Virus record (IMG/VR): IMGVR_UViG_3300029953_000096
Location: 1-35,775 of that record
DNA length: 35,775 nt
Reading direction: 5' to 3' (one strand)
Origin: a virus
The notes beneath the pieces were generated by a model that was not told where the DNA came from, did no database searches, and saw only the letters and a list, made by a program, of their open reading frames with translations. The translations under genes and the position numbers were made by a program. Positions 18,030-35,637 of this stretch are shown in pieces. Each line of letters starts with the position of its first letter. Position 1 is the first letter of the stretch.

Positions 18030-18054
18030 CGGGGCTGTGCCTAAAACAGCCCCG
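18030..18054. terminator. Strong nine-bp hairpin without T-tract
   Basis: CGGGGCTGT (18030-18038) and ACAGCCCCG (18046-18054) pair perfectly with a seven-base loop. No T-run follows, so it is more likely an RNA processing or stability element, or a factor-dependent pause, downstream of the decoration gene than a classical intrinsic terminator. Confidence 0.5.
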
Positions 18055-18095
18055 TCGGATGTCAAATAGCGGAACTCATCCACCGCCAAACCCTT

Positions 18096-18560: not shown

Positions 18561-18751
18561 TGAAGCTCTTTCAAAAGAGCGACCTACGAAAAGCGCAGCA
18601 GGAACAACTTGCAACCTTGACCCAAATGAAAGCGAAACTTCAATCGGAGATCGCCAAACTCATCAAGGACGTGAATAAACTGCGCGACGAACATCAGAGC
18701 CTCATCAACGACGTTACTGACTTACGGAACAAGCGGAGAGATTTATCCTAA
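18557..18751 (+). CDS. Short coiled-coil protein (64 aa)
   Basis: MMKLFQKSDLRKAQQEQLAT followed by an uninterrupted heptad helix (residues about 10-60, KLQSEIAKLIKDVNKLRDEH). The ATG overlaps the previous stop (ATGATGA); the second ATG is possible. Probably a small assembly or oligomerisation protein of the head module. Function unknown. Confidence 0.65.
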   Translation: MMKLFQKSDLRKAQQEQLATLTQMKAKLQSEIAKLIKDVNKLRDEHQSLINDVTDLRNKRRDLS

Positions 18752-18754
18752 AAT

Positions 18755-19099
18755 ATGTCCCAAGAACTTCTTCGACACAAAGGCGAGATTATCCGCGCGG
18801 ACATCTCGATTGCTACGTCTGGCAACAACACCATCATCACGGGCGTTGCTGGAAAGACGATCCGTATCCATCGGATTACCTTGTTTTGCAATGTAAGCAA
18901 CAACATCACGCTGTACAACGGAGCGACAAAAATAATGGACGTGATGGACTTCACATCCAATATGGGATGGGAACATGATTCGTGCGATCACTGCCCGTTT
19001 GTTCTCGCAGATGGCTCCAATTTCGTCCTCAACTTGTCGGCTTCTCAACAGGTAAGTGGTTCTGTTTGGTACGCACAAGATTTGACGCTTAACTCCTAA
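18755..19099 (+). CDS. Small beta-sandwich virion protein
   Basis: A 114-residue protein with alternating hydrophobic strands: TIITGVAGKTIRIHRITLFC, NITLYNGATKIMDVMDF, CPFVLADGSNFVLNLSASQQ and VSGSVWYAQDL. The layout (IRVxxxxL..., then strand, LxLNxSxxxxVSGxVxY) is typical of small beta-sandwich phage proteins found beside fibres. Likely a decoration or fibre-associated protein. It precedes the 445-residue fibre-like gene. Confidence 0.6.
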   Translation: MSQELLRHKGEIIRADISIATSGNNTIITGVAGKTIRIHRITLFCNVSNNITLYNGATKIMDVMDFTSNMGWEHDSCDHCPFVLADGSNFVLNLSASQQVSGSVWYAQDLTLNS

Positions 19100-19110
19100 C
19101 ACATCCCCGT

Positions 19111-20448: not shown

Positions 20449-20457
20449 AATCCTTCT

Positions 20458-20682
20458 ATGACCCTCGCACTCGTTCAGGATGCCGACGGAAACAACGCGC
20501 TTCAGGTCACTGCCGACGATGGATCTGTTCAGACATTTTCAAAAGTACAAGTTGATGCCATCCAAGCAAATACACAGGCACAAACACCTATCGTAACCGC
20601 CGCCGTTGCGCTCAACACACAAGCTCTCGCTGATTGTGAAACGATGGAAGCGTTCTGCCTCGCTAATGCAATCACGGTTTAA
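20458..20682 (+). CDS. 74-residue protein of the fibre region
   Basis: N-terminal beta pattern (LALVQDADGNNALQVTADDG followed by SVQTFSKVQ) and an Ala/Gln-rich helical C-terminus. It lies ten bases after the fibre gene and twelve before the next one, in the same operon. It might be a fibre-assembly or small virion protein. No family recognised. Confidence 0.55.
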   Translation: MTLALVQDADGNNALQVTADDGSVQTFSKVQVDAIQANTQAQTPIVTAAVALNTQALADCETMEAFCLANAITV

Positions 20683-20693
20683 TCTTTCAAAAT

Positions 20694-21134
20694 ATGGTTA
20701 AGTTTACGACCACACAACCAGTAGCCGCGACTGCCATCTTCTTTTCAAAGTTTGGCCTTCAAGGGATGTCACTTGATACGCAACGCAAAGCTATCAAATG
20801 TCTCCACAAAATCCGCACGGAGATTGAACCGACGGAAGAAGCACTTCAATCGAAATCGCAAGAACTGACAATCTTGAACAATCAACTAAAAGGAAACGTC
20901 CCTGTGACAGTGGAATTTATGGCGCAAGTCACAGCAGCCACGGAAGAAATGACGAAGGGTAACAAACTGCCAATCGAGGTCGAAGCTATGGCAGAAGGCG
21001 TCAATGCGTTCATTGAAGTGTTGAAAAAGATTGATTGGTCGTCAGCCGAATTAAAAGACAAATTCGAGGGTGTCCAAATGATCAACGTCGAACAGATGAT
21101 CTGCGATCTTGAATCGGCCAAAGAAGCCGTATAA
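20694..21134 (+). CDS. 146-residue helical protein, unknown
   Basis: Almost entirely helical with a Gln/Lys/Glu-rich composition (QRKAIKCLHKIRTEIEPTEE then ALQSKSQELTILNNQL). No membrane segment. It lies between the fibre region and the lysis cassette. A fibre chaperone is one possibility; nothing in the sequence proves it. Confidence 0.55.
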   Translation: MVKFTTTQPVAATAIFFSKFGLQGMSLDTQRKAIKCLHKIRTEIEPTEEALQSKSQELTILNNQLKGNVPVTVEFMAQVTAATEEMTKGNKLPIEVEAMAEGVNAFIEVLKKIDWSSAELKDKFEGVQMINVEQMICDLESAKEAV

Positions 21135-21138
21135 ACAT

Positions 21139-21519
21139 ATGCCTGACGAAGCTGTCTCCAAAATCAATGAAGCGGCTGCTGATGCGGCTCATGTTGTGGC
21201 CCAAGCCGCGGCAGAAGCAAAAAACGTGATCAACGCAGCGGCTGCCAGTGCCATTGCTACATTGACGACGGCAGCAGCGGTTCAGGCACGAGAGATCAAA
21301 TACATTACTGATACTCTCGATAAAGTGAACGATAAACTCGATAACCTGGAGAACAAATACGTCACAAAAGAAGAGTTTAAGACCATAGAAAACTCCGTTG
21401 AGAATTGCGTTACGTCAAGTGATTTTGCTCCTGTAAGGAACACTGTCTATGGGACTGCCGCAGTCATCTTCACAGCGATTATCGGAGTTGTCTTGAAGAT
21501 TTTATTCTTCAAACTCTAA
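21139..21519 (+). CDS. Holin-like protein (coiled coil plus C-terminal membrane helix, XhlA-like topology)
   Basis: A 126-residue protein starting MPDEAVSKINEAAADAAHVV. Residues about 1-55 are Ala-rich helix, about 55-80 a coiled coil (ITDTLDKVNDKLDNLENKYV), and about 102-125 a membrane helix (VYGTAAVIFTAIIGVVLKIL) ending with a Lys. This tail-anchored coiled-coil topology resembles XhlA-type holin-associated proteins. I chose the ATG at 21139; the longer frame overlaps the previous gene without support. It precedes the C39-like peptidase, which strengthens a lysis role. Confidence 0.6.
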   Translation: MPDEAVSKINEAAADAAHVVAQAAAEAKNVINAAAASAIATLTTAAAVQAREIKYITDTLDKVNDKLDNLENKYVTKEEFKTIENSVENCVTSSDFAPVRNTVYGTAAVIFTAIIGVVLKILFFKL

Positions 21520-21523
21520 AGGT

Positions 21524-22003
21524 ATGCCAGCACTTCCAAAATTTCGCATCCTTGGCCAGCAAGAACAACCGTGGGCCAACATGAAACTCGGCGCATCAAA
21601 TCTCACTGTGGGGCATGATGGTTGTGATCTGTGTTCGGTCATCACTCTTTCAAACTATTTCTACGGAGGAATGAAGTGGACGCCAGATCAAGTGTGTACG
21701 GATGCCTCCTTGTTTACCCCAGATGGTCTGGTGATTTACGACGCTTTGTGCGCCAAACTAGGTAACCTGAAATATACGGGTGCCACGGTTGGTGAGAATG
21801 ATGTCGCGATCAAAGCTGCTATCCAAGGAACGAACACGGGTGTCGTCCTGTGGGTGAACAATAAATCACACTTCGTCCTCGGTTGGTCTATTCCGATCTT
21901 TGGAAATGATTTCAACGTAGCCGATTCCTGGTATCAGAAAGTCGATCAAGCAAAAGGCACTTGGAAAAACATAGACGGAGGACGTTTCTTTATTCACGCA
22001 TAA
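21524..22003 (+). CDS. C39-family-like cysteine peptidase, probable endolysin
   Basis: A 159-residue protein. It has PWANMKLGASNLTVGHDGCD then LCSVITLSNYFYGGMKW, matching the Peptidase_C39_2 pattern (W...LG...ti...GC..cS.....nYf); C34 or C37 would be the nucleophile, with H116 (NNKSHFVLGW) and D134 (NVADSWY) completing the triad. In phages, such proteins commonly act as murein-degrading lysins or peptidases. It sits between a holin-like coiled-coil gene and a two-pass membrane gene, so it is probably the endolysin, though the cut bond cannot be told from the sequence. Confidence 0.75.
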   Translation: MPALPKFRILGQQEQPWANMKLGASNLTVGHDGCDLCSVITLSNYFYGGMKWTPDQVCTDASLFTPDGLVIYDALCAKLGNLKYTGATVGENDVAIKAAIQGTNTGVVLWVNNKSHFVLGWSIPIFGNDFNVADSWYQKVDQAKGTWKNIDGGRFFIHA

Positions 22004-22010
22004 CAAAAAT

Positions 22011-22295
22011 ATGTTGTTTTCTCAACTCCCTGCCGACATTCAATCCGCTTTGAACATGGACGCTTTGTACGTTGCCCAATTCAGCTCGAATGTGAATGAT
22101 CCAGCTGGCACAATTACTTCTGGTGCGCGCATCTCCCTTAAATCCCCTGCGCTCGCTCAATCCCTCATGGCGCATCAAGGCTTCCAGCTCGTAAGTGCCG
22201 AGGTCTGGTTCAACCAAGAGGCCGCTCCTTCCACGGACGCCGAAGGTTTGCAAATCGCTCAAAACGCTATCGCCGCGACCGCTGCGGGCGTCTAA
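22011..22295 (+). CDS. 94-residue protein in the lysis cassette
   Basis: Starts MLFSQLPADIQSALNMDALY, then a Ser/Ala-rich middle with VNDPAGTITSGARISLKSPA and a helical end (GLQIAQNAIAATAAGV). No signal peptide or membrane helix. It lies between the peptidase and the two-pass membrane gene with short spacers. Function unknown. Confidence 0.55.
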   Translation: MLFSQLPADIQSALNMDALYVAQFSSNVNDPAGTITSGARISLKSPALAQSLMAHQGFQLVSAEVWFNQEAAPSTDAEGLQIAQNAIAATAAGV

Positions 22296-22299
22296 ATAT

Positions 22300-22566
22300 A
22301 TGAAAGCATTTTGGGATTCAAAAACAGTTTGGATTAACGGGCTTACATCCGTGGCTGCCATTGTCGGCCTGGTAGTACAGCAGAACGGCCTCCTGCCGAC
22401 AGCCTGGATTGGCTACGCAGTGTTAGCCCTCGCAATCGTGAATCTTATTCTACGTTTCGTTACAGGCGAGCCTATAGGACTTCCGACGCCACCTACAGCC
22501 ACAACGGTAACAACTACGACTGCTGCACCAGCGACCGTAGTGGATGCTTCAACCACATCAGCCTAA
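22300..22566 (+). CDS. Two-pass membrane protein, holin candidate
   Basis: An 88-residue protein. The ATG at 22300 is four bases after the previous stop. Residues about 11-27 (INGLTSVAAIVGLVVQQ) and 33-52 (PTAWIGYAVLALAIVNLIL) are membrane helices, and the C-terminus is a disordered Thr/Ala/Pro tail. The size and topology suit a class II holin that lets the C39-like lysin reach the murein. It is one of two holin-like genes in the cassette. Confidence 0.6.
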   Translation: MKAFWDSKTVWINGLTSVAAIVGLVVQQNGLLPTAWIGYAVLALAIVNLILRFVTGEPIGLPTPPTATTVTTTTAAPATVVDASTTSA

Positions 22567-22577
22567 CCCCCCCTCCT

Positions 22578-23477
22578 GTGAAAAGTTTTACCGACCTCCA
22601 AAAACTATATGGCACGCTGACCAACGATTCATCGTCGGCAAACTTGGCGGTCGGTGCGGAACTGATGAACGATTCGATTCGTAAGATCTGCGCGGCTCGT
22701 GATTGGGATTTCATGCAAACAACTTTTACCGATCAAACCGTCGCGAGCCAGCAGGCTTACAATTTGCCCTACGATTACGACACGTTGGAGAACGTAAATT
22801 TTCTTGTTGGTACGACAACCTACGTTCCAAGCGAAGCACCGAATAAAGATTTCTGGGATTTGTTGAACCAAAACACTACAATTACCTCGAACATTCAGAA
22901 TTGGTACTTCATCATTAACAAGCAAATTCTCTTTTATCCAACGCCTTCTTCAAACGGCAATTCAATCAACTACACCTACCGCCGCCGCGTGGTTGATTTG
23001 AGCCGAGCTGATTACACGACAGGCAGTGTAAGCGCGGTAACGAATAACGCGTTCACACTCACTGGTTCAGGCACGACATGGACAGCGGCGATGGCTGGCC
23101 GTTATATCCGTATCAACGCAAGCGATGTTGCCACCACTAACGGCGATGAATTTTGGTATCAGATTGCATCGGTTCAATCAGCGACGGCCTTGACACTTAC
23201 GCGGCCTTATGCTGGTACCACAATCTCAGCCAATGCCACTTACACTATTGGGCAGATGTCCGCACTTCCCGAAGCGTATCAGGATCTTCCAATCTACGAA
23301 GCGGAGCAGCCGTACTGGGCGACTGTTCAGCCAGAGAAAGATCGCTACGACACAGCAGTCGATATGTACGATAAAAAATACGCACAGCTCGTTTACGATC
23401 ATTCTACGAAGACCATGAATCCTGCTATTGATGATGACCATGTGCAGACGAATCCTAACCTTTTTGTTACACTTTAG
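22578..23477 (+). CDS. Head-tail adaptor-like protein
   Basis: A 299-residue protein with a GTG start. The N-terminal helical part has AELMNDSIRKICAARDWDFM, followed by the beta-rich segment FTDQTVASQQAYNLPYDYDT and a middle domain (VVDLSRADYTTGSVSAVTNN). The IRxICxxRDWxFM helix followed by QAYxLPxDYxxL is a pattern I associate with head-tail adaptor or tail-tubular-A-like proteins that bind below the portal in short-tailed phages. The order after the lysis cassette, followed by a propeller-like tail protein, fits that role. Confidence 0.6.
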   Translation: MKSFTDLQKLYGTLTNDSSSANLAVGAELMNDSIRKICAARDWDFMQTTFTDQTVASQQAYNLPYDYDTLENVNFLVGTTTYVPSEAPNKDFWDLLNQNTTITSNIQNWYFIINKQILFYPTPSSNGNSINYTYRRRVVDLSRADYTTGSVSAVTNNAFTLTGSGTTWTAAMAGRYIRINASDVATTNGDEFWYQIASVQSATALTLTRPYAGTTISANATYTIGQMSALPEAYQDLPIYEAEQPYWATVQPEKDRYDTAVDMYDKKYAQLVYDHSTKTMNPAIDDDHVQTNPNLFVTL

Positions 23478-23496
23478 TGCTTAACCTAGCAAAAAT

Positions 23497-25077
23497 ATGG
23501 CACTCAAGCGCATCACAATCGACGGCATAGCCAACGGGCGCGCTGATACCAAATATATGCCCAAGAGCGGTCAATTCACCGCTTCGATTGCGATTGACCC
23601 TGACCTACCTGTGGGAGATTCTGTGCTTACGTCAGGCATGGCGGTTCCCACAAGTTTCAAGTCATTTTCAAGCAGTGCGATGACTTCTTATGTCATTCAG
23701 TGGATCACGTCGCCAAAGAACGCGCTGATCTATGCCGTGCTGAAAAATGGAAGCCTACTCTCGTACACAGCAGCTCTTGGATCTGAAACATTGGTCGCTA
23801 CGGTCGCTGGCGGGAACGCAGAAGGCGCGGCGTACTACAACAACTACATTTATATCTTCGGCACGGGTTCTTCAAAGAACGACGTGTCGCGGTATGGGCC
23901 TCTGAACAATTCACCGACGCTTGTCGATGGTGTTTGGACTGGCTCTACACTCGGCAGCCAGACGGCGTTGACCGCGACGACCTATCCGCAGTTCAATCAG
24001 GCGACTTTGCCTAACCACTGGGCATTCGCACACTCGGACGGCAATCTTTACTTCGTCGATTACATCAATGGTCAAGGTTTAGTCCACAAAATAGCAACCA
24101 CAAAAGGAACTAACGAAGGAGATACCAACAATGGCTCCGCGTATAACGTCCTCGACCTCAATTACGGGTTCTATCCGACCTCGATCTGTAATTTTGGCAC
24201 AGACATCGCGGTTATCGCCATCCAATCGACCTCCGCAGCCATCAATCAGGGTCAAGCGGCTCTGTTTTTGTGGGATCCAACAAATACGGTCACTTTCTAT
24301 CGTCAGATTGCCCTGCCTGACCCGATGGCAACGGCCCTGACGTATGCAGACGGTTATTTGACCATTTGGAGTGGTAACGCGGGCGCAGGCGTGCGCCTGA
24401 CGCAGTACACGGGCAACGGCGACACCGTCTCTGACCTTGTTTCACTAGAAGATGGTCAACCTCCACTCGCAGGAGCAGTGGACAACATCGAATCGGGCGT
24501 GGTTTGGGGTCAACAAATTACCTATCCATCCCTCGCGGCAGTGGTTTTTGCCTACGGATATGATGGGGGGGATCTAAGCAGTGGTCTTCAGTGTATTTCG
24601 CGCGCGAATGATGTATCGATAGTCAATCCAAACATAACAGCCCTCATGCTTGCTCTTCAGAGCGCGCGTGCATCGAATCAGTTGATTCAGGCTTGGGCCG
24701 ACACTGGAACATTCGCTGCCGATAGTTATGGGTCTACCACTCTCGCATCCGTTTTGAACCTGCCAATGGCAATGATTGGTCAACGCTTCAACATAAAAAA
24801 AATCCGCATCCCATTTGGGGGAGCGGTTGATTCTAATACTACGATTACGCCAAAGATTTATTTCGATGATGAATCTTTGACACTTACGTTGGCGACAATC
24901 AACAACACGAATTACCCAGCCCAACGCAAGGTTCTCTATAAGCAGCCGCAGATTGTTGGTAATACAACACAAAACAATTTCTTCCTCCAATTAGTTTGGA
25001 CAGGCACAACTGCTCTACCGTTATTATTCCCAATCTTGATTGACATCGAGACATTCGAAGACGAAACGAACCAATAA
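23497..25077 (+). CDS. Nozzle / propeller-like tail protein
   Basis: A 526-residue beta-rich protein. It has repeated short strands with Gly/Tyr/Asn turns (AAYYNNYIYIFGTG, WAFAHSDGNLYFVDYINGQG, TYADGYLTIWSG), typical of beta-propellers, and a separate C-terminal beta domain (about 440-526). Proteins of this size and build that follow the adaptor gene form the tail nozzle in P22/T7-like phages, through which DNA exits. No signal or enzymatic motif. Confidence 0.55.
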   Translation: MALKRITIDGIANGRADTKYMPKSGQFTASIAIDPDLPVGDSVLTSGMAVPTSFKSFSSSAMTSYVIQWITSPKNALIYAVLKNGSLLSYTAALGSETLVATVAGGNAEGAAYYNNYIYIFGTGSSKNDVSRYGPLNNSPTLVDGVWTGSTLGSQTALTATTYPQFNQATLPNHWAFAHSDGNLYFVDYINGQGLVHKIATTKGTNEGDTNNGSAYNVLDLNYGFYPTSICNFGTDIAVIAIQSTSAAINQGQAALFLWDPTNTVTFYRQIALPDPMATALTYADGYLTIWSGNAGAGVRLTQYTGNGDTVSDLVSLEDGQPPLAGAVDNIESGVVWGQQITYPSLAAVVFAYGYDGGDLSSGLQCISRANDVSIVNPNITALMLALQSARASNQLIQAWADTGTFAADSYGSTTLASVLNLPMAMIGQRFNIKKIRIPFGGAVDSNTTITPKIYFDDESLTLTLATINNTNYPAQRKVLYKQPQIVGNTTQNNFFLQLVWTGTTALPLLFPILIDIETFEDETNQ

Positions 25078-25081
25078 ATAT

Positions 25082-27397
25082 ATGGCTGAAGAGTACGAAG
25101 ATTTGAACATTTATTACGACGGGAATAATGTTCCCATATCTTCGGATTCCTCATCGGATAATTCTTCGGACAATTCAGACACATCGGATTACGTCACCGC
25201 TGATGTCGTTCAGGGAATGATCAAAACAGCTTTGTCACAGCTCACGGTTCCTCTCTCGTCTGGAGCAGGCTCAAACGCCTTCAACGTCACAAACCAAGGT
25301 CTGTATCTCGGCAGTGGTACATTTGCCACCGCGCCTTTCTCGGTAACAATGGCAGGTGTTTTACGGGCCACGGGTGCCATCATCTCTGGTTCCATCACAG
25401 CCACAAGCGGAACGATCGGCGGATTCTCCATTGGTTCAACAACCATCTCATCTACTGGCCTAACACTCACAAGCGGTGCATCCGCTTCGCTCGCGTTTGG
25501 GACGGTTCCCCCGACTTCACCTTCGTCGGGCACGGGCATTTATATAGACAAAACAGGTTTATTTGGTCTATCGGCAAACACGCAGAATTTCATCATATCG
25601 GCGGCAAATGGAAGTATAACTGCTATATCAGGGACGATTGCAGGGGCCACGTTCACATCCTCGGCAATCAGCTCTTCCAACTACGCTTCAGGATCAATCG
25701 GTTGGACGATTTCAAATAGCGGAAATGCCGAGTTCAATAACATCTTGGTGCGCGGCGAATTCCATTCGTCGGTTCTTTCGTATGCTTCCGTTCAGGTAAC
25801 GGCTGGGTCAACGCTCCTGGCTCTATCTGGTGGCTCATTGCGCGCGGATGTTACGACGGCAACATCTCCGACGACGTTCAATGTGGATATTAACGATCCG
25901 CCGTCTGGTCACATTCAGGTGTTTGCTGCGAATGACATTCTTCGTATCAAGGACGGCAGTGGAAATGATAATTGGATGACAGTTTCTTCGGTGTCAGATC
26001 AAACGACTTTCTTCCGATATGTCTGTACGAAAAATAACGGAACAAACGCCACATTCCGCGCGGGCGCGGCAGTGGCTGATTATGGTCAATCAGGACAAGG
26101 CCTCATTTTCAACACGGTGGATCAAACCAATGCGCCGTACATGAGCATTCAGACGCACACTGGTTCTCCATGGTCTTCGGTCACGGAGCAAGTTCGCATT
26201 GGTCAGTTGAACGGAATCAATGGTTTCGTTTCAAGTACCTATGGGATTTCCATTGGCCAGATCACGACGGGCAATTACCTCACCTACGACACGGCATCGG
26301 GAAAGCTAGTCGTGAACGGTTCCCCAATCACAAACGAGGACATTTTCGGTGACGGTTCTGATGGGACTCTTGCGGGAGGAGGAGGGACAAAAACTTTGAC
26401 AAGGGACACATTCTATTCGAATGCAACGCTCAACAGCGGGGATGTCATTGTGACGAACGGATTCCGTTTATTCGTCAGTGGAACTCTCACAATCAATTCG
26501 GGAGCATTTATACGATGGAATGGGAATAACGGAAATACGGGTGGCAACGCTTCAGGCATCACAGGCGGATCCGCAGGATCATCTCCTGGCCCATTAGCTT
26601 CAGGCTCCGTTAATGGAACGGTGGATGGTGGTGCAGGAACAGCAGGCGCAACTGGCGTGTCCGTTAATAACGGCGCAGGTCAAAACTCTAGTGCTTCATC
26701 GACTGGAACTTCGGTAACGAAGGCTATCACTGGCAATCCAGGCGTTAAAGCAGGTCAGGGCGCATCTGGTGGTACAGCCACGGGAGGATCGACTTCTCCA
26801 AATGGCACGGGAGGTTCGGTTGGAACCGCTGGCACAGTTTCAGGTACGATCTTCAATACCCTCCACACGGGGGCAGCTTGTTATCTCTTACAGGATTTAT
26901 TCCCATCTCTCACACCACTAACGGTCGCGGCGGGTTCCACTGGTGGCACGGGGGGGGGTGATGGAGCTGCTTCCTTCGCCAACGGCAATTCAGCATCATC
27001 TGGGGGCGGCGGAGGTGGTGGTAGTGCTGGAACGCCAGGTGGTATCGTTCCAATCTTTGCTCGGATCATCGTCAATGCAGGCACGATTCAAGCACTTGGC
27101 GGTAACGGCGGTAACGGCGGTAACGGCGGTAACGGGACAGTCGGCACAGTTTCCCAAGCAGGTGCAGGTGGAGGCGGTGGAGGCGGTGGAGGCGCGCCTG
27201 GGCCAGGAGGCGTCATCATCATGGTTTTTTCAGCCATTACCGATACAGGAACGGAAAGTGTAGCAGCGGGCAGCGTTGGATCTGGGGGAACTGGTGGAAC
27301 TGGCGCACACTTCTCCACTGGCACGGCGAATAATGGTGCAACTGGATCAAATGGAGCTACGGCAGCGTCAGGAACGATTATCAAACTTCAGGTCTAA
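25082..27397 (+). CDS. Large tail fibre / adhesin with polyglycine C-terminal region
   Basis: A 771-residue protein. The N-terminus is Asp/Ser-rich (residues about 17-38). Residues about 45-430 are beta-rich with phage-fibre-like SGSITATSGTIGGFSIGSTT and AISGTIAGATF elements. From about 440 to the end it is Gly-rich, with runs of GGNGG, a stretch of nine consecutive Gly and the element GAPGPGGVIIMVFS, which resembles polyglycine-II adhesin domains of other phage receptor-binding proteins. I chose ATG 25082; the longer frame overlaps the nozzle gene. Expected role: host-surface recognition. Confidence 0.75.
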   Translation: MAEEYEDLNIYYDGNNVPISSDSSSDNSSDNSDTSDYVTADVVQGMIKTALSQLTVPLSSGAGSNAFNVTNQGLYLGSGTFATAPFSVTMAGVLRATGAIISGSITATSGTIGGFSIGSTTISSTGLTLTSGASASLAFGTVPPTSPSSGTGIYIDKTGLFGLSANTQNFIISAANGSITAISGTIAGATFTSSAISSSNYASGSIGWTISNSGNAEFNNILVRGEFHSSVLSYASVQVTAGSTLLALSGGSLRADVTTATSPTTFNVDINDPPSGHIQVFAANDILRIKDGSGNDNWMTVSSVSDQTTFFRYVCTKNNGTNATFRAGAAVADYGQSGQGLIFNTVDQTNAPYMSIQTHTGSPWSSVTEQVRIGQLNGINGFVSSTYGISIGQITTGNYLTYDTASGKLVVNGSPITNEDIFGDGSDGTLAGGGGTKTLTRDTFYSNATLNSGDVIVTNGFRLFVSGTLTINSGAFIRWNGNNGNTGGNASGITGGSAGSSPGPLASGSVNGTVDGGAGTAGATGVSVNNGAGQNSSASSTGTSVTKAITGNPGVKAGQGASGGTATGGSTSPNGTGGSVGTAGTVSGTIFNTLHTGAACYLLQDLFPSLTPLTVAAGSTGGTGGGDGAASFANGNSASSGGGGGGGSAGTPGGIVPIFARIIVNAGTIQALGGNGGNGGNGGNGTVGTVSQAGAGGGGGGGGGAPGPGGVIIMVFSAITDTGTESVAAGSVGSGGTGGTGAHFSTGTANNGATGSNGATAASGTIIKLQV
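27101..27136 (+). repeat. Nine-base tandem repeat in the fibre gene
   Basis: GGTAACGGC occurs three times in succession (27101-27127), then once as GGTAACGGG (27128-27136). It encodes the GGN repeat of the polyglycine segment and preserves the reading frame if units are gained or lost. Confidence 0.9.
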
Positions 27398-27413
27398 GTG
27401 CTAAAATCACCAT

Positions 27414-30158
27414 ATGCCAAATCCAATCACACCCACTCCTTCAGCGGCAACCCTTCAACTTCAAAAGGAAGCCGCTTTGACTGCGTCTGGAAATAAAGCA
27501 GGAGCAGTCGCTTCAAGTGCGACGTATAACCAAACCCCGCCCGCTCCAGTGGTTCCAACGACACCACCGCCCGTGACACAACCAGCTCCCGCCCCTGCCG
27601 CAGCCCCACCAATGCCTGCGGGTGGAGTGGCCGCGCCGACTGGAGCCTCGGCAAACACACCTGGCTTCACTTCAAAAGCTCCTGCGGCATCAACGCCACA
27701 GCAGGCAGCTTTGACGTGGTATCAAGGTATTATCAATGGATCGACGCCGTACAACCCTTCCGACCCGAATGCTTCAACATATCTTCAGGCTCTTGCACAA
27801 ATGGGCGTAGCTGGAGCCAGTAACATTCAAGCATTAGGAGCATCGGGTGTTGGCCGCGCACAACAAAATTATACTGACGCGCAGAGTCAGATTTCCGATC
27901 GCATCAGCAACGCGTATTCCAACATTCAAAACATTCTTGCGAACGGACAGAATACCCCACAGCAGCAAGCAGCGGTTCAATCTCAAATCGCTGGCATTCA
28001 AGGCTATCTGAACGTGGCCGCGAATTACGGCATCCCGCTCACAGGAATTGCCTATCAAGACGCAAACGGAAACTGGATCGCTGGAACAGCTGCGGCTCCA
28101 TCTCCCGCGCTAGCTGGAAATGCGGGTAACGTACCAGCAGTAAATGGAACGACAGCACCAGTTAGCACTCCACCCCCTGTGACTGCTAATGGCGGGAATA
28201 GCGGCACCACTTCGAGCGGTACGTCGGTTGCGCCTGCTGGCACCACGGCTCCGCCCGCACCTGGAGGTAACGGTTCAACTGTTCTTCCTGGTGGTGGAAC
28301 GAGCACGCCCATCACGCCCGCGGCTGGCGCGAACGCATCGGGTTCCGCAATCACACTCGCTGATGCTGGTGGTCCCGCTGGTTCGAACACATTGAGCCCG
28401 CCGCCAGGATCAACCTTGCTTACTGGGCCGAGCCAGCTCGCAGGTCTGACGGAAAGCCAGATTTTTCGTGGATCAAATGGTCAGATTTACGCACTGCCTG
28501 GTGTGACACCTGGCGGTGGCGGAAGTTCTTTCGGTTCAACTGGAAGCGCAGCAGGAGGCACAGGTGGTGCTGGAGGCGCAACGGGCGCGCCAGTCTCCAC
28601 ACAGGTTCCAGGGGCGAGCACGGCCAACGGTATGCCTGGCTCTTCGGGATATCCCGCTGGTTCAATTCAAGATCTAAAAGCCCAAATTACCTATTTCCAG
28701 GGTCAGATCATCTCGGCTGAGGCACCGACGGCTGACGAAACGACACTTCAAAACACATTAGACACATTGAACGAAGAACAAGAAGCGATCACGTCGACCC
28801 TTTTGTCGAACGATGTGAATGTAGAAGGTCAACCGATTGCACAAGCTTTCGTCACAGGCCAGCAGGCAGCTCTTCAGCGTAAAGCAGACGCGCAATCTGC
28901 CGCTCTTGGCGTTTCACAAACGAACGTAGAGGATCAACTCAAAGAACTTCAGGCGAAGCGCGCAACCGCTTTGGATACGGCTACTTCGGACGAACAATTT
29001 GCGGAGGAGAACTACGCCGCCGCCGTTCCTGCTCCAGTTGCTCTTGCGGCGGGTGCTTCGTTGGTGAACCCATTGACGGGAGCCACGGTCGCGAATGGCG
29101 CGCCGAAAGAGGTTCGTACGGGTTCCACGACCGATCCGACCACGGGAGCCGTCAGCTATTCATACGGCCCAGAGCCTGGCACTGGTGGTGCGACATCGAG
29201 CGGTGGATCCTCAAGTGGATCTACTTCAGCCCCTGCATCAACGGGCGGTGGTCTAGGCACCACAACTTCTACTCCTGCCATGAAGGGTGGATTAGGTAAG
29301 GCTGTCACACCTACGCCAACGGTCTCTGGTTTGACGACAGCGAGCGGTCAACCAGCCAACTATCAGGATGCGAGCGGAACGAGCTACTACGTCGCACCCG
29401 ATGGCACGAAAACGATCGCAAACATCCCAGCGGGCGGTGCGGCTAAGTCTTCGGCAACTTCTACATCTTCGAAGTCAACTGGAACGCCTTTGTCGAACCC
29501 GAACTTGGAAAGTGTGGCACAGGCTCTCGCTGATGGAACTATCGCGCCTTCACAGGTATCAATGAGCCGTGGCGGAGCTGGCGAAATCAATCAGGTGGAA
29601 ATGCGAGCATCTCAAATCAATCCGAATTTCAATGCTGCCGAGGCACAGAAGCAGTACGGTTATGCCACAACTCCAGCCACGATTACGCAGGCACAGGCCA
29701 TCGTCAGTGCATATCCAAACTTTGACACGTTGATAAATCTCGCAAAGAACGCAAATTATAAAGGCCCGAAGACTTTGAATAACATTCAACTGGAATCGGG
29801 GGTTGAGTTCGGAAATACGAACGCGGCAAATTTCGCCCAAGCACAGAAACTTCTTGGCGACGACATAGCTGGAATCCTTGGTTACGGTTCCGCTTCCGAT
29901 TTGAAAACCCAACTTGGTTTGGATGTGGTCGATCCAACACTTACAGTCGATCAATTCACTTCAAATATGAATCAATTGAAGGGGTTCGTGGACAACAAAA
30001 TCAACGCAATTAACAGTCAGGCTGGAATGTACGCACAGGGTCTTTTGAACCTTCCTGTCCAGGTTACATCTCCTGACGGTACTACTGGTTGGATGCCAGC
30101 TTCAAATCTTCAAAAAGCATTGAGCCAGGGATTCACTCAGATACAAACGAATCAATAA
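27414..30158 (+). CDS. Large Ala/Gly/Pro/Ser-rich virion protein (possible ejection protein)
   Basis: A 914-residue protein. Residues about 30-90 are Pro/Ala-rich and disordered, followed by a helical segment (about 100-210, QALAQMGVAGASNIQALGAS), a long Gly/Thr/Ser/Pro-rich section (about 220-420), a coiled coil (about 425-530), another Gly/Ser/Thr-rich stretch (about 560-690) and a helical C-terminus (about 700-914). No enzymatic motif is visible. Such large, modular low-complexity proteins between the tail and the end of the late operon may be internal proteins ejected with the DNA; this is inference. Confidence 0.5.
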   Translation: MPNPITPTPSAATLQLQKEAALTASGNKAGAVASSATYNQTPPAPVVPTTPPPVTQPAPAPAAAPPMPAGGVAAPTGASANTPGFTSKAPAASTPQQAALTWYQGIINGSTPYNPSDPNASTYLQALAQMGVAGASNIQALGASGVGRAQQNYTDAQSQISDRISNAYSNIQNILANGQNTPQQQAAVQSQIAGIQGYLNVAANYGIPLTGIAYQDANGNWIAGTAAAPSPALAGNAGNVPAVNGTTAPVSTPPPVTANGGNSGTTSSGTSVAPAGTTAPPAPGGNGSTVLPGGGTSTPITPAAGANASGSAITLADAGGPAGSNTLSPPPGSTLLTGPSQLAGLTESQIFRGSNGQIYALPGVTPGGGGSSFGSTGSAAGGTGGAGGATGAPVSTQVPGASTANGMPGSSGYPAGSIQDLKAQITYFQGQIISAEAPTADETTLQNTLDTLNEEQEAITSTLLSNDVNVEGQPIAQAFVTGQQAALQRKADAQSAALGVSQTNVEDQLKELQAKRATALDTATSDEQFAEENYAAAVPAPVALAAGASLVNPLTGATVANGAPKEVRTGSTTDPTTGAVSYSYGPEPGTGGATSSGGSSSGSTSAPASTGGGLGTTTSTPAMKGGLGKAVTPTPTVSGLTTASGQPANYQDASGTSYYVAPDGTKTIANIPAGGAAKSSATSTSSKSTGTPLSNPNLESVAQALADGTIAPSQVSMSRGGAGEINQVEMRASQINPNFNAAEAQKQYGYATTPATITQAQAIVSAYPNFDTLINLAKNANYKGPKTLNNIQLESGVEFGNTNAANFAQAQKLLGDDIAGILGYGSASDLKTQLGLDVVDPTLTVDQFTSNMNQLKGFVDNKINAINSQAGMYAQGLLNLPVQVTSPDGTTGWMPASNLQKALSQGFTQIQTNQ

Positions 30159-30159
30159 T

Positions 30160-31896
30160 ATGGATGACTACTCCTCGCTGGGCTTCATGCCTTCTGCGGT
30201 ACAACCGAAAACAAGCGCACCAACTACGGCTGCGCCTGCTTCGTCAAATCAGTATTCCGATTTGGGGTTTATGCCGTCAGCGGCGAATACTACATCTGCT
30301 CCAACTCCAGCACCAGAAACATGGACGCAAAAAGCGGAGGATGTAATGGGTACAATCAATAAATATAATCCCGTCAACATCGGGAACGAAGCTCTCGTCG
30401 GTGCTGGAAAACAGATCGCTGGAATGGTTCCAAACGCGGCAGAACTCGGCGTGACGGCTGGAAACTGGGCGGCCTCAACTCCTGTTGGAAAAACCATCGC
30501 CAAAGATGTCATCCAACCTGTCGCTCGCAAACTTGGATTTACTCCACAGATGGCGGGAGAGGTTCAACAAGGCATCCAGCAGGGCGTGACAAAATCTCAA
30601 CAGGACTTCGCTCCAAAAGGTCTACCAGAACAGGCAGGCGCGCTTGCGGCGAACGTGGCTGAATTTGCCGTGCCTGGCATGGGTGAAGAGGCTGGTGCCG
30701 CGCTTCTGCCTCGAATGGCTACACAGGCCGCAGAAACAGGCGCGCTTTCCGCCGCCCAAACTGGATCATGGAAACAAGGAGCATATGGAGCCGCATTGGG
30801 GGCTGCTATGCCTCTCCTGGAGCCTGTAATGGCTGCGGCGTCCAAACCTTTTGGAAACATGGCAAAGGAGGCGGCTACGTTCGTCGCATCGAAATTAAGC
30901 GGCGTCCCGAAGGCTGCCATTAATTACGCGATTGAAAATCCTGAAGCGGTTCAGGCGTCGATCAAAAAGATGTCCGAGAATCCCGAACTTGGCGCAGAGA
31001 AAATTACGCAGGATGCTAAGGATGCTCTCGATGCCCTCAAATCCGCGCGCAGCGATGCTTACGAGGCAAACATGGCCGCAGTAGAAAAGTCAGTTCCCGA
31101 AAAGGCACTTACCACACAAGGAATAAAAAAGAGCATCACACAGACGCTCACTGACTTCAATGTTCCGACAAAGGGAACCAATCTTGATTTTACAAAAGCC
31201 ACGCTCCCAAAATCCTATCAGAACAATCTCACGGAATTGGTTCAACGCGTCTATGATTGGGATGACACAACACCAAAAGGCATGAACCAGTTGCGTAAGA
31301 TCATCTCCAGCTATCGTGTGGGTGGCATTTCTCCAAGCGGAGCTGCCAAATCCTTTGATGCCATCGTCACAGGACTTTCTTCTGGCCTCTCGGATTATAT
31401 CTCGGAGCGTGCTCCTGAAGTTGGAGTGATGAACAAAGAATACGCCGCCGCCTCACAATTTATTGACCAAGCCAAAAGTGCATTGAGCCTTGAGACGAAA
31501 ACCCCGACTACGGCTGCCCGTAAACTACTCAACGTCTTCAATCCAAAGTCGATTGTCTATCGAAACGTGACGGAACAACTCGGAGCAAAAGCCAGTAAGG
31601 ATTTGATGTCTGACATCGCGGGACTTCTCATGTCAAAATGGACAGCGGAGGGTCTTGGATCATATCTAACTACGTTTTTGCTTGGGAGTGAGGGGATGGG
31701 TGGCTTTGAGTCCATGATCCATAATCCTTATGTGATACCTGGCATGGCAGCGACGGCAGCTACCTCTTCTCCACGAATCGTTGGTGAGACGGCAACCCGC
31801 GTCCCAATGTTCGCCAAAGCGATTGCTCCCATAGCAAAACCTCTTTTAAAAGGGGCAGCTAAAAAAGCAGCCGTATCAGTTTTTGGTAATCAGTAG
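30160..31896 (+). CDS. Large helical late protein (possible ejection protein)
   Basis: A 578-residue protein. The ATG is one base after the previous stop (TAATATG). The N-terminal 50 residues carry two copies of a YSxLGFMPSA motif, each with a Pro/Thr/Ala-rich linker. Residues about 60-250 are Ala/Gly-rich and amphipathic, and about 250-578 are long helices with KSARSDAYEANMAAVEKSVP and WTAEGLGSYLTTFLLGSEGM. The sequence could be a membrane-inserting internal protein. It is the last late gene; no intrinsic terminator is visible behind it. Confidence 0.55.
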   Translation: MDDYSSLGFMPSAVQPKTSAPTTAAPASSNQYSDLGFMPSAANTTSAPTPAPETWTQKAEDVMGTINKYNPVNIGNEALVGAGKQIAGMVPNAAELGVTAGNWAASTPVGKTIAKDVIQPVARKLGFTPQMAGEVQQGIQQGVTKSQQDFAPKGLPEQAGALAANVAEFAVPGMGEEAGAALLPRMATQAAETGALSAAQTGSWKQGAYGAALGAAMPLLEPVMAAASKPFGNMAKEAATFVASKLSGVPKAAINYAIENPEAVQASIKKMSENPELGAEKITQDAKDALDALKSARSDAYEANMAAVEKSVPEKALTTQGIKKSITQTLTDFNVPTKGTNLDFTKATLPKSYQNNLTELVQRVYDWDDTTPKGMNQLRKIISSYRVGGISPSGAAKSFDAIVTGLSSGLSDYISERAPEVGVMNKEYAAASQFIDQAKSALSLETKTPTTAARKLLNVFNPKSIVYRNVTEQLGAKASKDLMSDIAGLLMSKWTAEGLGSYLTTFLLGSEGMGGFESMIHNPYVIPGMAATAATSSPRIVGETATRVPMFAKAIAPIAKPLLKGAAKKAAVSVFGNQ

Positions 31897-31950
31897 CCAG
31901 AGACAACAGATAATCAGAAATGTTTGAAGCATATCATTTAGTGATTACAT

Positions 31951-32022
31951 TCAATCGTTACGATGATCCACAGCAACTTTGATTATCACTGCGAGAATTG
32001 CGGCAAGTAGAATATCGGTCAT
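31951..32022 (-). CDS. 23-residue membrane peptide after the HNH-AP2 gene
   Basis: MTDILLAAILAVIIKVAVDH followed by RND: one hydrophobic helix with a charged end. Its ATG lies one base after the HNH-AP2 stop (TAATATG), the junction used across this genome. The region 31897-31950 on either strand shows nothing else. It may be a tiny real gene; the size makes this uncertain. Confidence 0.4.
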   Translation of the reverse strand: MTDILLAAILAVIIKVAVDHRND

Positions 32023-32023
32023 A

Positions 32024-32509
32024 TTATTTTGGAATTACGTTTAGTCGAGCAAACTCGCCGTGATATTTTAGTGCTGCTACGTTGTAGGCCTTTGCTGCCT
32101 CGATTTTTGTTTTGAATGTTCCTAAATGGATGTGTTTATAATTTACCGTAATTTCCGCCGACCATGGCTTACCATTTTTCTGCTTTACGACGCCTTTAAA
32201 TCCTGAAGTGTTATTGACATTCTTTCCTCGGTTTCTCAAATTCTCCGAATGACAGCAGAGACGCAGATTTTCCTTTCGGTTGTCGAGTCCATCGCCATTT
32301 ATGTGATCTACATGCTGGCCTTTTTCGGCCTCCATTATGATCCGATGCATTGATACATCTTTTCCATAATTCGGTAGTTTCCTGGAGGCATAAACCAGTT
32401 TTGATTTTTTGGTCATGCTATGTAGATACCACGAAGACTTTGAAATACGATCAAAATCATCGTCATCTACCTTCGCATGATACCCTTTTGTCAATTCTAT
32501 TTTTTTCAT
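32024..32509 (-). CDS. HNH endonuclease with AP2 domain
   Basis: A 161-residue protein from the ATG at 32509. About residues 53-85 form the HNH nuclease (MHRIIMEAEKGQHVDHINGD then GLDNRKENL; H66, D68, H69, N71), and 100-157 an AP2/ERF-type DNA-binding domain (TSGFKGVVKQKNGKPWSAEI followed by LGTFKTKIEAAKAYNVAALK). HNH-AP2 proteins are mobile homing endonucleases. A longer start at 32518 adds three residues. The gene runs opposite to the late genes and is preceded by a compact three-way-junction RNA. Confidence 0.9.
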   Translation of the reverse strand: MKKIELTKGYHAKVDDDDFDRISKSSWYLHSMTKKSKLVYASRKLPNYGKDVSMHRIIMEAEKGQHVDHINGDGLDNRKENLRLCCHSENLRNRGKNVNNTSGFKGVVKQKNGKPWSAEITVNYKHIHLGTFKTKIEAAKAYNVAALKYHGEFARLNVIPK

Positions 32510-32514
32510 AAAAA

Positions 32515-32585
32515 TCACTCAGAGGCTGAGAGTGCGACGGTACCAGCTACCGCGTGGATTTCTCCACCTCTCAACCTTTGAGTGA
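32515..32585 (-). ncRNA. Three-way-junction RNA element in the HNH-AP2 leader
   Basis: Outer helix TCACTCA/TGAGTGA (32515-32521/32579-32585); inner helix TGAGAG/CTCTCA (32527-32532/32568-32573); two hairpins CGGTA/TACCG (32538-32542/32548-32552) and GTGGA/TCCAC (32554-32558/32563-32567). On the minus strand the last hairpin has a GAAA tetraloop, which favours that strand as the transcript. The element ends six bases before the HNH-AP2 start. T-runs follow on both strands (TTTTT on minus, TTTTTT on plus), so it may also act as a terminator. It matches no RNA family I can name. Confidence 0.6.
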
Positions 32586-32595
32586 CTTTTTTGGC

Positions 32596-32623
32596 TGGAC
32601 TTTTCGCACGGAAAGCGTATCAT
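32596..32623 (+). promoter_or_regulatory. Weak candidate promoter of the ATP-grasp operon
   Basis: TGGACT (32596-32601), a 16-base spacer and TATCAT (32618-32623). The -10 box is good (five of six), the -35 is poor. The transcript would start about 20 bases before the ATG at 32651. Confidence 0.3.
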
Positions 32624-32650
32624 GGATTCATAGATTTGTCAACACCACCT

Positions 32651-34033
32651 ATGCCCTTGAAACGCGCTTATTTCATGGATTTCTTCGGGGAATGTCTTCC
32701 CGTGGCTGAACATTTACAACGTGAAGGTGTGGACGTTGTTGTGTCTCTTTTGCCTGATATTCGATCCACGGAAACCTCGGCTGACGGAAAAAAACACGAA
32801 GAGAGTGATGACAAGAAGAAACGCATGTCTGCTTTCGACGGGATCGTGAAAAAAGTCACTCCTGAAAAGATGGTTCAGATGGTTTTGAATGACAAGAAAC
32901 CTGAAGAGGCGTTTTTCTTCGCGGGATTCAACTTGGTTTTTGAGTACGCCGAACAGTTGAAGGACTGTAAGATGATGGGCTTGTACTGTACGGAGGAAGA
33001 TCGAAAGTTAGAGGTAGATCGTGCCGCTGCTAAAAAGTTTGTCGAGGCCAACTATCCTGGTTTAGAGGTAGCCGAAGAGCATGAGTTTTCCAAGGTAGCC
33101 GACGCTATTCAATTTCTACAGGATACCGATTCCGCATGGGTCGCCAAAGGATTTGACGAATCTGCTCCCACCTCCGTACCTGATTCTGATGATCCAGAAA
33201 AGGCACGCGATGACATCACAAAAAAGTTGGAGAAAAACCAAAAGGAATTTGAGCGTGGTGGTTTTCTGTTAGAAAAAAAGATTGCCAATGCCGTAGAGAT
33301 CACCCCCGAAGCATTGTTTGTCGATGGAAAACTCGTCGCCACGACTGTTGATATTGAATTGAAGAAGATCGGAGCGGGTGATATTTCTTTTTTGACAGGT
33401 TGCTCGGCCGATCTGGTCTTCACAACGGATCCAGGAGCGCAGATCAATGAAATGGCCTTCCCACCCGCTGTCTACAAAATGGCAAAGGCACATAAGGGCG
33501 TATTCATTTTTGACGCATCCATTTTATTTGATCCAACTGATGGTACGCCTTACTTTTCCGAATTCTGCTCCAATCGAGCGGGCTTCAATTGCCTTTATAG
33601 CGAATTGGCTCTTGTGGGTTCGTGTAAAGAATTTTTCGAGGCTCTGATGGAACATCGCAATCCTTATGAGAACGCACCTCATAAATTCGCCTCCAGCGTT
33701 CGAGTTTTCAACTTCAAAAACAGTGACGGAAAGATCGTAACACCAGAGGATGCCGATGTTGATTACGACGAAGAAATCCAAGACAATGTTTGGAACATGG
33801 ATGTCAAGATGAAAGGCGACCAACTTGTGACGGTTGGGGCCGATTATCAGCTTGCGGTTGTTACGGGTACTGGTGATTCGATTCCGAGTGCGGCGAAGGA
33901 TTGCTACAATAACCTCGAAGGATTCAACTTTCCAAACAAATACACCCGCCCTCTTCTCGACTATCTCTCCAAGGCATATCCTGGGGCCATTCAGAAACGC
34001 TACGCTTACGGCCTAAAAAATAACCTCTTTTAG
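32651..34033 (+). CDS. ATP-grasp (GARS/PurD-like) protein
   Basis: A 460-residue protein. The N-terminal part (about 1-130) looks like a Rossmann-like preATP-grasp domain (KRAYFMDFFGECLPVAEHLQ, DVVVSLLPD). The central part has DTDSAWVAKGFD, FLLEKKIANAVEITPEALFV then DGKLVATTVD, and a C-terminal LAVVTGTGDSIPSAAKDCYN followed by NLEGFNFPNKYTRP. These resemble the VVVKAD, VxEExLxGxExSxxxxxDG and C-terminal DTLxxAxxxAY elements of glycinamide ribonucleotide synthetase (PurD), in order. It should couple ATP hydrolysis to ligation of an amine and a carboxylate, but its substrates are unknown. The longer upstream frame has no support. It is the first gene of a three-gene operon. Confidence 0.6.
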   Translation: MPLKRAYFMDFFGECLPVAEHLQREGVDVVVSLLPDIRSTETSADGKKHEESDDKKKRMSAFDGIVKKVTPEKMVQMVLNDKKPEEAFFFAGFNLVFEYAEQLKDCKMMGLYCTEEDRKLEVDRAAAKKFVEANYPGLEVAEEHEFSKVADAIQFLQDTDSAWVAKGFDESAPTSVPDSDDPEKARDDITKKLEKNQKEFERGGFLLEKKIANAVEITPEALFVDGKLVATTVDIELKKIGAGDISFLTGCSADLVFTTDPGAQINEMAFPPAVYKMAKAHKGVFIFDASILFDPTDGTPYFSEFCSNRAGFNCLYSELALVGSCKEFFEALMEHRNPYENAPHKFASSVRVFNFKNSDGKIVTPEDADVDYDEEIQDNVWNMDVKMKGDQLVTVGADYQLAVVTGTGDSIPSAAKDCYNNLEGFNFPNKYTRPLLDYLSKAYPGAIQKRYAYGLKNNLF

Positions 34034-34036
34034 CCT

Positions 34037-34177
34037 ATGAAACTTCGCCAATGGTTCTCCAAGTTCAAAAGGAAGTTCAGCAAAAACAACTGCGTGGGAA
34101 ACATGCACGTCCAAACGGATCGAAGCGGCGTCTGTGCATGTGGCAAGATTTCAGGCATTCCTCCTCAATGCCGTTGA
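34037..34177 (+). CDS. Cys-rich basic peptide, 46 residues
   Basis: MKLRQWFSKFKRKFSKNNCV then a Cys-containing C-terminal half with GVCACGKISGIPPQCR. The N-terminal 18 residues are strongly basic and amphipathic. It starts three bases after the ATP-grasp stop and ends one base before the next start (TGATATG). Four Cys could bind zinc or form a knot. It may be a substrate, a regulator or simply another mini zinc protein. Confidence 0.55.
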   Translation: MKLRQWFSKFKRKFSKNNCVGNMHVQTDRSGVCACGKISGIPPQCR

Positions 34178-34178
34178 T

Positions 34179-34547
34179 ATGCGCTTCATTCTTGAAACGG
34201 TGGATAAAAAAGATATCAGGAATGAAGATGTAGGCGATTGGATTCCTACTGCTTACGGCGGTTACATCAAAGGCGTGGACTTGGGCGATGCCGACATGAA
34301 CTTTGTACTCTTGGTACATGAATTGGTAGAGTTTTACCTTTGCATGAAGAATGGGGTGACGGATGAACAAGTGACGGCCTTCGATGCCTCATTTCTGGCC
34401 TCTGGTAAGCCTGGAGAAGCGGGCAACGACCCTGATGCTCCATACGCGCCATTCCATGACTTTGCCACGGTTGTGGAGCATTTAATCGCTAACAAACTTG
34501 GGATACCTTGGGAAACTTACGATCAACTTATTGAGGAATACAAATAA
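34179..34547 (+). CDS. HExxE-motif protein (122 aa)
   Basis: Residues 45-56 read LVHELVEFYLCM (H47, E48, E51), an HExxE arrangement close to metallopeptidase zinc sites. It continues with NGVTDEQVTAFDASFLASG, GNDPDAPY, an H/F/D segment (PFHDFATVVEHLIANKLG) and a WxxYD end. I recall similar small phage proteins (HExVExxLxxxxGxTDxxVxxFD, then DPxAPYxxxH), but no established function. The ATG at 34179 follows the preceding stop by one base. Last gene before the terminator. Confidence 0.65.
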   Translation: MRFILETVDKKDIRNEDVGDWIPTAYGGYIKGVDLGDADMNFVLLVHELVEFYLCMKNGVTDEQVTAFDASFLASGKPGEAGNDPDAPYAPFHDFATVVEHLIANKLGIPWETYDQLIEEYK

Positions 34548-34548
34548 G

Positions 34549-34569
34549 CACCCATTACGGGTGTTTTTT
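34549..34569 (+). terminator. Intrinsic terminator of the ATP-grasp operon
   Basis: CACCC (34549-34553), loop ATTAC, GGGTG (34559-34563) and six T's (34564-34569), immediately after the stop of the HExxE gene. Confidence 0.85.
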
Positions 34570-34573
34570 GATG

Positions 34574-34600
34574 AAAAACGGAAGGCTTGTTAGCTTTCCG
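34574..34600 (-). terminator. Intrinsic terminator of the minus-strand zinc-ribbon gene
   Basis: On the minus strand CGGAAAGC (34600-34593), loop of six bases, GCCTTCCG (34586-34579) with one A-C mismatch, followed by TTTTT (34578-34574). The hairpin overlaps the stop codon of the 53-residue gene. Together with the plus-strand terminator it separates the two converging units. Confidence 0.65.
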
Positions 34601-34751
34601 TAAGCGTCTTGCAGTGCAGACAGTTGCGAATGTCTATCTCCTTTCCGTCAACGTATTTCACACCCACATCGTGGCGTGTACTTCGACGGCAGTTGTGACA
34701 AACCATCACAGTGCTTCTCATCCACTTGATCACGGGATCTTCAGTTTCCAT
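34590..34751 (-). CDS. 53-residue zinc-ribbon protein with strong Shine-Dalgarno
   Basis: METEDPVIKWMRSTVMVCHN continues to CRRSTRHDVGVKY and ends NCLHCKTLTES: CHNC...CLHC zinc ribbon. Unlike nearly all other genes here it has a strong ribosome-binding site (AAAGGAG, six bases before the ATG). It lies between two terminators and the hairpin-rich region. The different initiation signal suggests another origin or independent expression. Confidence 0.7.
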   Translation of the reverse strand: METEDPVIKWMRSTVMVCHNCRRSTRHDVGVKYVDGKEIDIRNCLHCKTLTES

Positions 34752-34800
34752 GTTATCTCCTTTCGTTCCGTTCTCACTCTAGCCCAAGACACCCAAGCTC

Positions 34801-35046
34801 GAATGAGGACGAAACGGGCGAGATTTTACGTCTCACCAATTCCGTCTCTGAGGAGCGTTAATCGCTCCGTTCAAACGTCCGATAATTTCGGACAGTTAAA
34901 CGGAACGCCCAACGTGGAAGAGTTGGGGTCGATGCGCTCCGATAAAGGTTCTTCAAAGAACAGAGCGCACGAACGCTCGTGTGCCTAACCAACGTCTTAA
35001 ACGGAGCTGGCATTTGAGGCCAATTTGCTATCCGTTTTCTTTACAT
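34801..35046 (+). ncRNA. Candidate large structured RNA in the convergent intergenic region
   Basis: No gene is supported. Hairpins in series: GGAGCG/CGCTCC (34852-34857/34863-34868), GTCCG/CGGAC (34877-34881/34889-34893), CCCAAC/GTTGGG (34908-34913/34922-34927), GCGCTC/GAGCGC (34934-34939/34963-34968) with an inner GTTCTT/AAGAAC, and finally AAACGGA/TCCGTTT (34999-35005/35031-35037) around TGGC/GCCA, followed by a T-rich tail. The last resembles a plus-strand terminator. Density of stems far exceeds the coding regions. No family recognised; an origin or packaging-related DNA element is the alternative. Confidence 0.45.
34809..34842 (+). repeat. Intergenic motif, copy A
   Basis: ACGAAACGGGCGAG, then a short variable hairpin loop, then TCTCACCAATTC. 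GAGA/TCTC can pair. A second copy occurs 250 bases downstream. Confidence 0.75.
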
Positions 35047-35058
35047 TTGGTCAAGCGC

Positions 35059-35095
35059 ACGAACGGGCGAGGAAGTTTCAAAACCTCACCAATTC
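35059..35095 (+). repeat. Intergenic motif, copy B
   Basis: ACGAACGGGCGAGG, a variable loop, then CCTCACCAATTC. GAGG/CCTC can pair, so the hairpin is kept with compensating changes relative to copy A (GAGA/TCTC). The preceding AGCGCACGAACG also occurs at 34964-34975. Confidence 0.75.
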
Positions 35096-35186
35096 ATGTT
35101 TATGAAGATTTGAGCGGGTTCCTGTTCAGCTACGACCCTATGCACACCACCTGACAGTGATGAAATAGATAGCCAATCAGTGCCTA

Positions 35187-35204
35187 CCCACAAACGAATG
35201 TGGG
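35187..35204. other. Six-bp hairpin near the end of the NinG-like gene
   Basis: CCCACA (35187-35192), six-base loop, TGTGGG (35199-35204). No T-run on either strand. The rest of 35096-35226 shows no gene. It may mark the end of the leftward operon transcript. Confidence 0.45.
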
Positions 35205-35226
35205 AATGTCGCGCTGTGTTTATATT

Positions 35227-35637
35227 TTACTCCTTCGACAAAGTTTTCAAAAGTGCTTTATATTTCTCTATCATGTCTTGATACCATTGAACCGTGTATT
35301 TTACTGACATTCTTGGTTTACCAAATAGGTAATCATAACGTTCAGGAAATTTGGCTTGGAACCAGTCACCAGCTTCAATAGGATTCTTGTGCCACCAATT
35401 TATGTGGCAGTGATAACAAAGTGTCTTGATGTTCAAAGGATCGAAACGGAATTGATTCCCAGCAGATACAGGGATGACGTGTGACCCGTGACAATCTGAT
35501 CCTGTAACGTACTTGCCGCACCGCTGACAAATGTTTTTGTCCCTTATTTTCACGAATTGTTTTACTAGAATCTCAAGTTGTTTTTTCAAACGACTTATTG
35601 ATGGTTTCTTTTTGGATTTTACTTTGAAGTAGTTCAT
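35227..35637 (-). CDS. NinG-like HNH protein
   Basis: A 136-residue protein. The N-terminal third is basic and helical (KKKPSISRLKKQLEILVKQF), then CQRCGKYVTGSDCHGSHVIP (C37, C40, C49, H50, H53) and FRFDPLNIKTLCYHCHIN (N69, C74, C77), followed by WWHKNP, DWFQAKFPERYDYL and a C-terminal helix. This is the NinG (Rap)-like HNH layout: Cys-zinc finger, HxH, then C...C and a YDYL-type end. Lambda NinG stimulates recombination by resolving branched DNA. Its ATG overlaps the stop of the NinB-like gene (TAATG), which keeps the lambda-like ninB-ninG pairing. Confidence 0.75.
   Translation of the reverse strand: MNYFKVKSKKKPSISRLKKQLEILVKQFVKIRDKNICQRCGKYVTGSDCHGSHVIPVSAGNQFRFDPLNIKTLCYHCHINWWHKNPIEAGDWFQAKFPERYDYLFGKPRMSVKYTVQWYQDMIEKYKALLKTLSKE

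Follow-up and report, generated by a model that had tools for sequence, protein, structure and literature searches.

A candidate structured minus-strand RNA with a duplicated hairpin between ninG and a predicted zinc-ribbon gene in a phage genome

Described systems and the locus

To our knowledge few large structured RNAs of phages have been described, and the function of GOLLD and ROOL is still unsettled. Other systems to which a locus of this kind can be compared are OLE, a large structured ribonucleoprotein RNA with protein partners, and the structured leaders of autoregulated phage and ribosomal-protein genes. GOLLD and ROOL are both large RNAs borne by phages, and tRNA islands are often found close to GOLLD RNA (PMC12286853). 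We analysed a viral stretch of 35,775 nt (hereafter the window), in which a region of 475 nt between two minus-strand genes is a candidate for a further structured RNA. The features of the locus, in minus-strand order, are:

35227-35637, minus strand: NinG-like HNH recombination endonuclease (Pfam NinG, 2.8e-11; PHROG 5034, 4.3e-15)
34752-35226, minus strand: proposed structured RNA of 475 nt, intercistronic, bounded by the stop codon of ninG and the zinc-ribbon start codon
34764-35109, minus strand: core with the folding signal, consisting of the middle and 3' domains (z per domain against shuffles)
35058-35098, minus strand: motif copy 1, CAUGAAU-U-GGUGAGG(11-nt loop)CCUCGCC-C-GUUCGUG, with a U.C mismatch between its two 7-bp helices
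34974-35065, minus strand: predicted long hairpin with closing helix CGUUCGUG/CACGAGCG, competing with the outer stem of copy 1
34808-34846, minus strand: motif copy 2, GACGGAAU-U-GGUGAGA(7-nt loop)UCUCGCC-C-GUUUCGUC, with the architecture of copy 1 and compensated pairs
34764-34907, minus strand: 3' domain with a predicted five-way junction, its closing helix being CGUUCCGU/ACGGAACG (z -7.5)
34757-34763, minus strand: AAAGGAG, ribosome-binding sequence of the zinc-ribbon gene (from the sequence)
34590-34751, minus strand: predicted zinc-ribbon protein of 53 aa with two CxxC motifs (sequence and AlphaFold2 model)
34573-34601, minus strand: intrinsic terminator, ACGGAAAGCUAACAAGCCUUCCGU followed by a U-run (sequence; fold z -3.6)

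Like GOLLD and ROOL, the proposed element would be a large multi-helix phage RNA, but it has no sequence or covariance match to either, is shorter than GOLLD, adjoins the next gene without separation and has no tRNA genes nearby (ARAGORN found none in the whole 35,775-nt window). It resembles OLE and its protein partners in that the RNA is followed by the gene of a small protein; it differs in being phage-borne, in lacking a covariance match and in that the putative partner is a predicted zinc ribbon of 53 aa. With the autoregulated leaders it shares a position directly upstream of a gene for a small, possibly RNA-binding protein and an edge that carries the ribosome-binding site, whereas it contains one hairpin twice, about 250 nt apart, and shows no mimicry of a known target, the regulation here being putative.

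The initial annotation had named GOLLD and ROOL as candidates and had suggested cmsearch against Rfam as a check. In this search the region gave no match at gathering score and only chance matches at E up to 10. The models of ROOL and OLE were unmatched at either level, and GOLLD likewise lacked a covariance match, so that the region cannot be recognised as GOLLD, ROOL or OLE. No family of known riboswitches or other cis-regulatory RNAs reached the gathering score, the sole cis-regulatory match being Glutamine-II with 12.2 bits, where the cut-off is 33. An RNA anti-CRISPR was rejected, since the loop lengths (11 and 7 nt) and the spacing of about 250 nt are unlike those of CRISPR repeats.

Gene context and possible function

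The minus strand carries, in this order, the NinG-like gene, the 475-base region, the 53-aa zinc-ribbon ORF and the intrinsic terminator, which overlaps the end of the zinc-ribbon gene and closes the unit formed by this gene and the element. The region itself holds no minus-strand ORF of at least 60 aa. It had been placed at the end of two converging operons; instead, it lies inside the minus-strand unit, upstream of the gene at 34590-34751. The plus operon has its last position at 34547, and the minus-strand operon, in which the NinG-like gene is upstream of the structured region, runs on beyond 34752-35226. The region lies in the 3'-terminal part of the early/replication operon.

For the zinc-ribbon protein no family was found in Pfam and PHROG searches. 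AlphaFold2 run on the single sequence predicted a confident fold (mean pLDDT 91 for the best model), with two of the five models at about 90 and three at about 50, and fold searches with the model gave no significant match.

We consider it possible, with a probability of roughly 0.4, that the region is a structured intercistronic RNA of the minus strand that works on or together with the zinc-ribbon gene. Minus-strand transcription would run through ninG, the structured stretch and the zinc-ribbon gene; a protein, in the first place perhaps the zinc-ribbon protein itself, would bind the duplicated hairpin, possibly recognising the U.C mismatch between its two helices; and binding would set the fold of the 3' domain beside the ribosome-binding site or, alternatively, lead to assembly of a ribonucleoprotein. 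A translation switch is not visible, because the Shine-Dalgarno bases of the zinc-ribbon gene are largely unpaired, and only partly paired, in the predicted ensemble. The length of 475 nt, which is long for the leader of a 53-codon gene, also speaks against reading the element as a leader. If the zinc-ribbon-linked reading is true, a phage RNA that is internally duplicated and has a small partner gene next to it would make up a compact system for the study of structure, partner and regulation.

The main rival, which we judge somewhat unlikely but rank directly behind, is a free trans-acting RNA like GOLLD, ROOL or OLE, which would either be processed out of the early transcript or have a promoter of its own and would form a multi-helix particle with the duplicated hairpins as docking or oligomerisation sites. 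The size, the several helical domains, the phage location and the presence of one structural module in two copies are in line with it, and GOLLD and ROOL are phage-borne precedents (PMC12286853). Against it count the missing Rfam match, the absence of tRNA genes nearby, the outcome of the homolog searches described below, the lack of a terminator between the RNA and the zinc-ribbon gene, which starts where the RNA ends, and a scan of the minus strand in which no sigma-70-like promoter was found. The last result implies that the RNA may exist solely within a long message.

Folding signal and the duplicated hairpin

The region folds better than its shuffled versions on both strands, with the minus strand (-190 kcal/mol, z -7.65) ahead of the plus strand (-159 kcal/mol, z -4.9) and none of 100 shuffles equally good in either case. 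When the whole window was scanned in 240-nt tiles on both strands, the minus-strand tile at 34801 ranked second of 594 (z -6.7). The signal is confined to about 34764-35109: the middle domain (34908-35109) has a z of -6.7 and the 3' domain, which contains motif copy 2 and closes directly before the ribosome-binding sequence, one of -7.5 (0 of 200 shuffles for each), while the 5' quarter (35110-35226) is at chance level (z -1.1). The many perfect stems pointed out in the initial annotation do exceed the shuffles (four Watson-Crick hairpins of at least 6 bp against a mean of 1.4), yet this excess is only mildly unusual, being reached in 13 of 300 shuffles, and is the weaker evidence. With G.U pairs allowed, the minus strand has 25 hairpins and the plus strand 12. 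The suggestion that structure is under selection, in RNA or in DNA, is supported and can be made more specific: since the G.U pairs make sense solely on the minus strand, the selected molecule is most likely the RNA of that strand.

A duplicated motif with an exchange of GAGA/TCTC for GAGG/CCTC had also been described before, and both copies and the exchange were indeed found. Read on the plus strand, they are ACGAAACGGGCGAG...CTCACCAATTC near 34812-34843 and ACGAACGGGCGAGG...CTCACCAATTC near 35060-35096, with a spacing of about 250 nt. In this reading several pairs, including conserved U.G ones, turn into A.C mismatches, and the motif is therefore better read on the minus strand, where the arms of copy 2 are ACGGAAU-U-GGUGAGA...UCUCGCC-C-GUUUCGU and both copies consist of two helices with a single U.C mismatch between them. 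Paired 9-mer repeats that are colinear and have a motif-like spacing occurred in only 4 of 5000 dinucleotide shuffles.

All 14 pairs of the motif form in both copies; four of them differ on both sides and one on one side, and none is broken. When the partner is shifted by 1-3 columns, the paired fraction falls to 32-50%. As covariation this evidence is limited, coming from two paralogous hairpins only, and the count was reached by 32 of 500 shuffles. The latter number favours the view that repeats and hairpins built up neutrally in this non-coding DNA and that the pair changes between the copies arose by chance, as do the location of the region in a variable genome arm and the fact that conservation across species is not demonstrable. 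We nevertheless find this explanation, third in rank, improbable, given that the 14 pairs are kept in both hairpins despite five changed pairs, that z is near -7 in two separate domains and that the tile ranks so high in the window.

The 3' arms of both outer stems have an alternative partner downstream. In copy 1 the arm CGUUCGUG (35058-35065) pairs at 8 of 8 positions with CACGAGCG (34974-34981), and in copy 2 CGUUUCGU (34809-34816) does so with ACGGAACG (34764-34771); in both cases the alternative partner strand closes the next hairpin and a C.A mismatch follows the eight pairs. When copy 1 was made to keep its outer stem, the predicted energy rose by 3.3 kcal/mol overall, and the fold obtained had a rearranged 3' domain as well. 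Having a full partner is not rare for the 8-mers of the element (0.39 on average elsewhere within it), so the alternative pairing is no strong evidence and, as a switch, is suggestive only. That the element represents a new class of phage RNA, a duplicated switch in which CGUU(U)CGU arms would toggle between two global folds that differ by 3.3 kcal/mol, under control of the zinc-ribbon protein, seems to us a long shot.

The inverted repeats and an exact 12-mer, AGCGCACGAACG, that is repeated could also belong to an element that acts at the DNA level as the target of a phage protein, for example a replication origin or a recombination or packaging site, and the position next to ninG at the end of the early genes would suit this. 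The strand asymmetry, with G.U pairs confined to one strand, argues against it. An origin keeps some residual probability; of its features we found the one 12-mer pair, and the cumulative GC skew has no clear turn at the region. The element is moreover absent from sister phage G003, which has an identical terminase and a ninG at 99% identity, and we rank this explanation last and regard it as quite improbable; for a packaging site in particular, as had been proposed, the absence from the whole record of a phage with the same terminase makes the case unlikely.

Relatives and other observations in the window

Searches with ninG, the zinc-ribbon gene, the terminase and a late 483-aa protein retrieved relatives of which one alone, an IMG/VR contig, carries the RNA; being 99.97% identical around the element, it is uninformative. 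In G003 the structural genes are 99.7-100% identical and the element is missing from the whole 44-kb record, and it is equally missing from the whole record of G002, which has ninG at 99%. It follows that the element is part of a variable genome arm (about 20657-35233 of the window). Throughout the records searched the element and the zinc-ribbon gene are present together and absent together, which speaks for a link between the two, although joint absence is expected of neighbours.

Four motif-pattern scans over viral contigs (2.9 million) and a fifth over 85,462 prokaryote genomes revealed no divergent homolog; such scans detect exact motif matches only and may thus have missed diverged homologs. 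Beyond the near-identical contig the matches were single hairpins with a chance resemblance to the pattern, several of them inside ORFs. Blastn against phage and plasmid records gave no match, and when 315 kb of related and candidate loci were searched with a covariance model of the 3' domain, no convincing match emerged. One match, L035, has seven extra inner pairs but was rejected as a homolog, since both the second copy and similar surroundings are missing. The G+C-rich hairpin at L035:385-422 (minus strand), in an intergenic gap of an unrelated phage, keeps the frame GAATTGGTGAG...CTCGCC, probably by chance. The element stays a candidate until a transcript or divergent relatives turn up.

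We also observed several features elsewhere in the window. The strongest fold (240-nt tile, z -7.3) is a compact three-way-junction RNA structure at 32510-32594 (minus strand), just upstream of a gene for an HNH endonuclease (32024-32518); it has no Rfam match and a covariance model found no further copy in 1.02 Mb of loci, and it is possibly a translation-control leader of a homing endonuclease. A tandem hexamer, GCCGTT, occurs in 36.5 copies at 3194-3412 within a low-complexity stretch, the length of which varies among sister phages. The mosaicism of G003 is sharp: positions 9721-20657, with the terminase and most structural genes, are 99.7-100% identical, and 20657-35233, up to ninG, is different. 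Finally, in contig L001 window position 35775 is followed by 79 bases and then by window positions 1-167, from which the ends of the window appear to join, and the record probably represents an almost complete genome, circular or permuted, that was cut within a 120-aa ORF.
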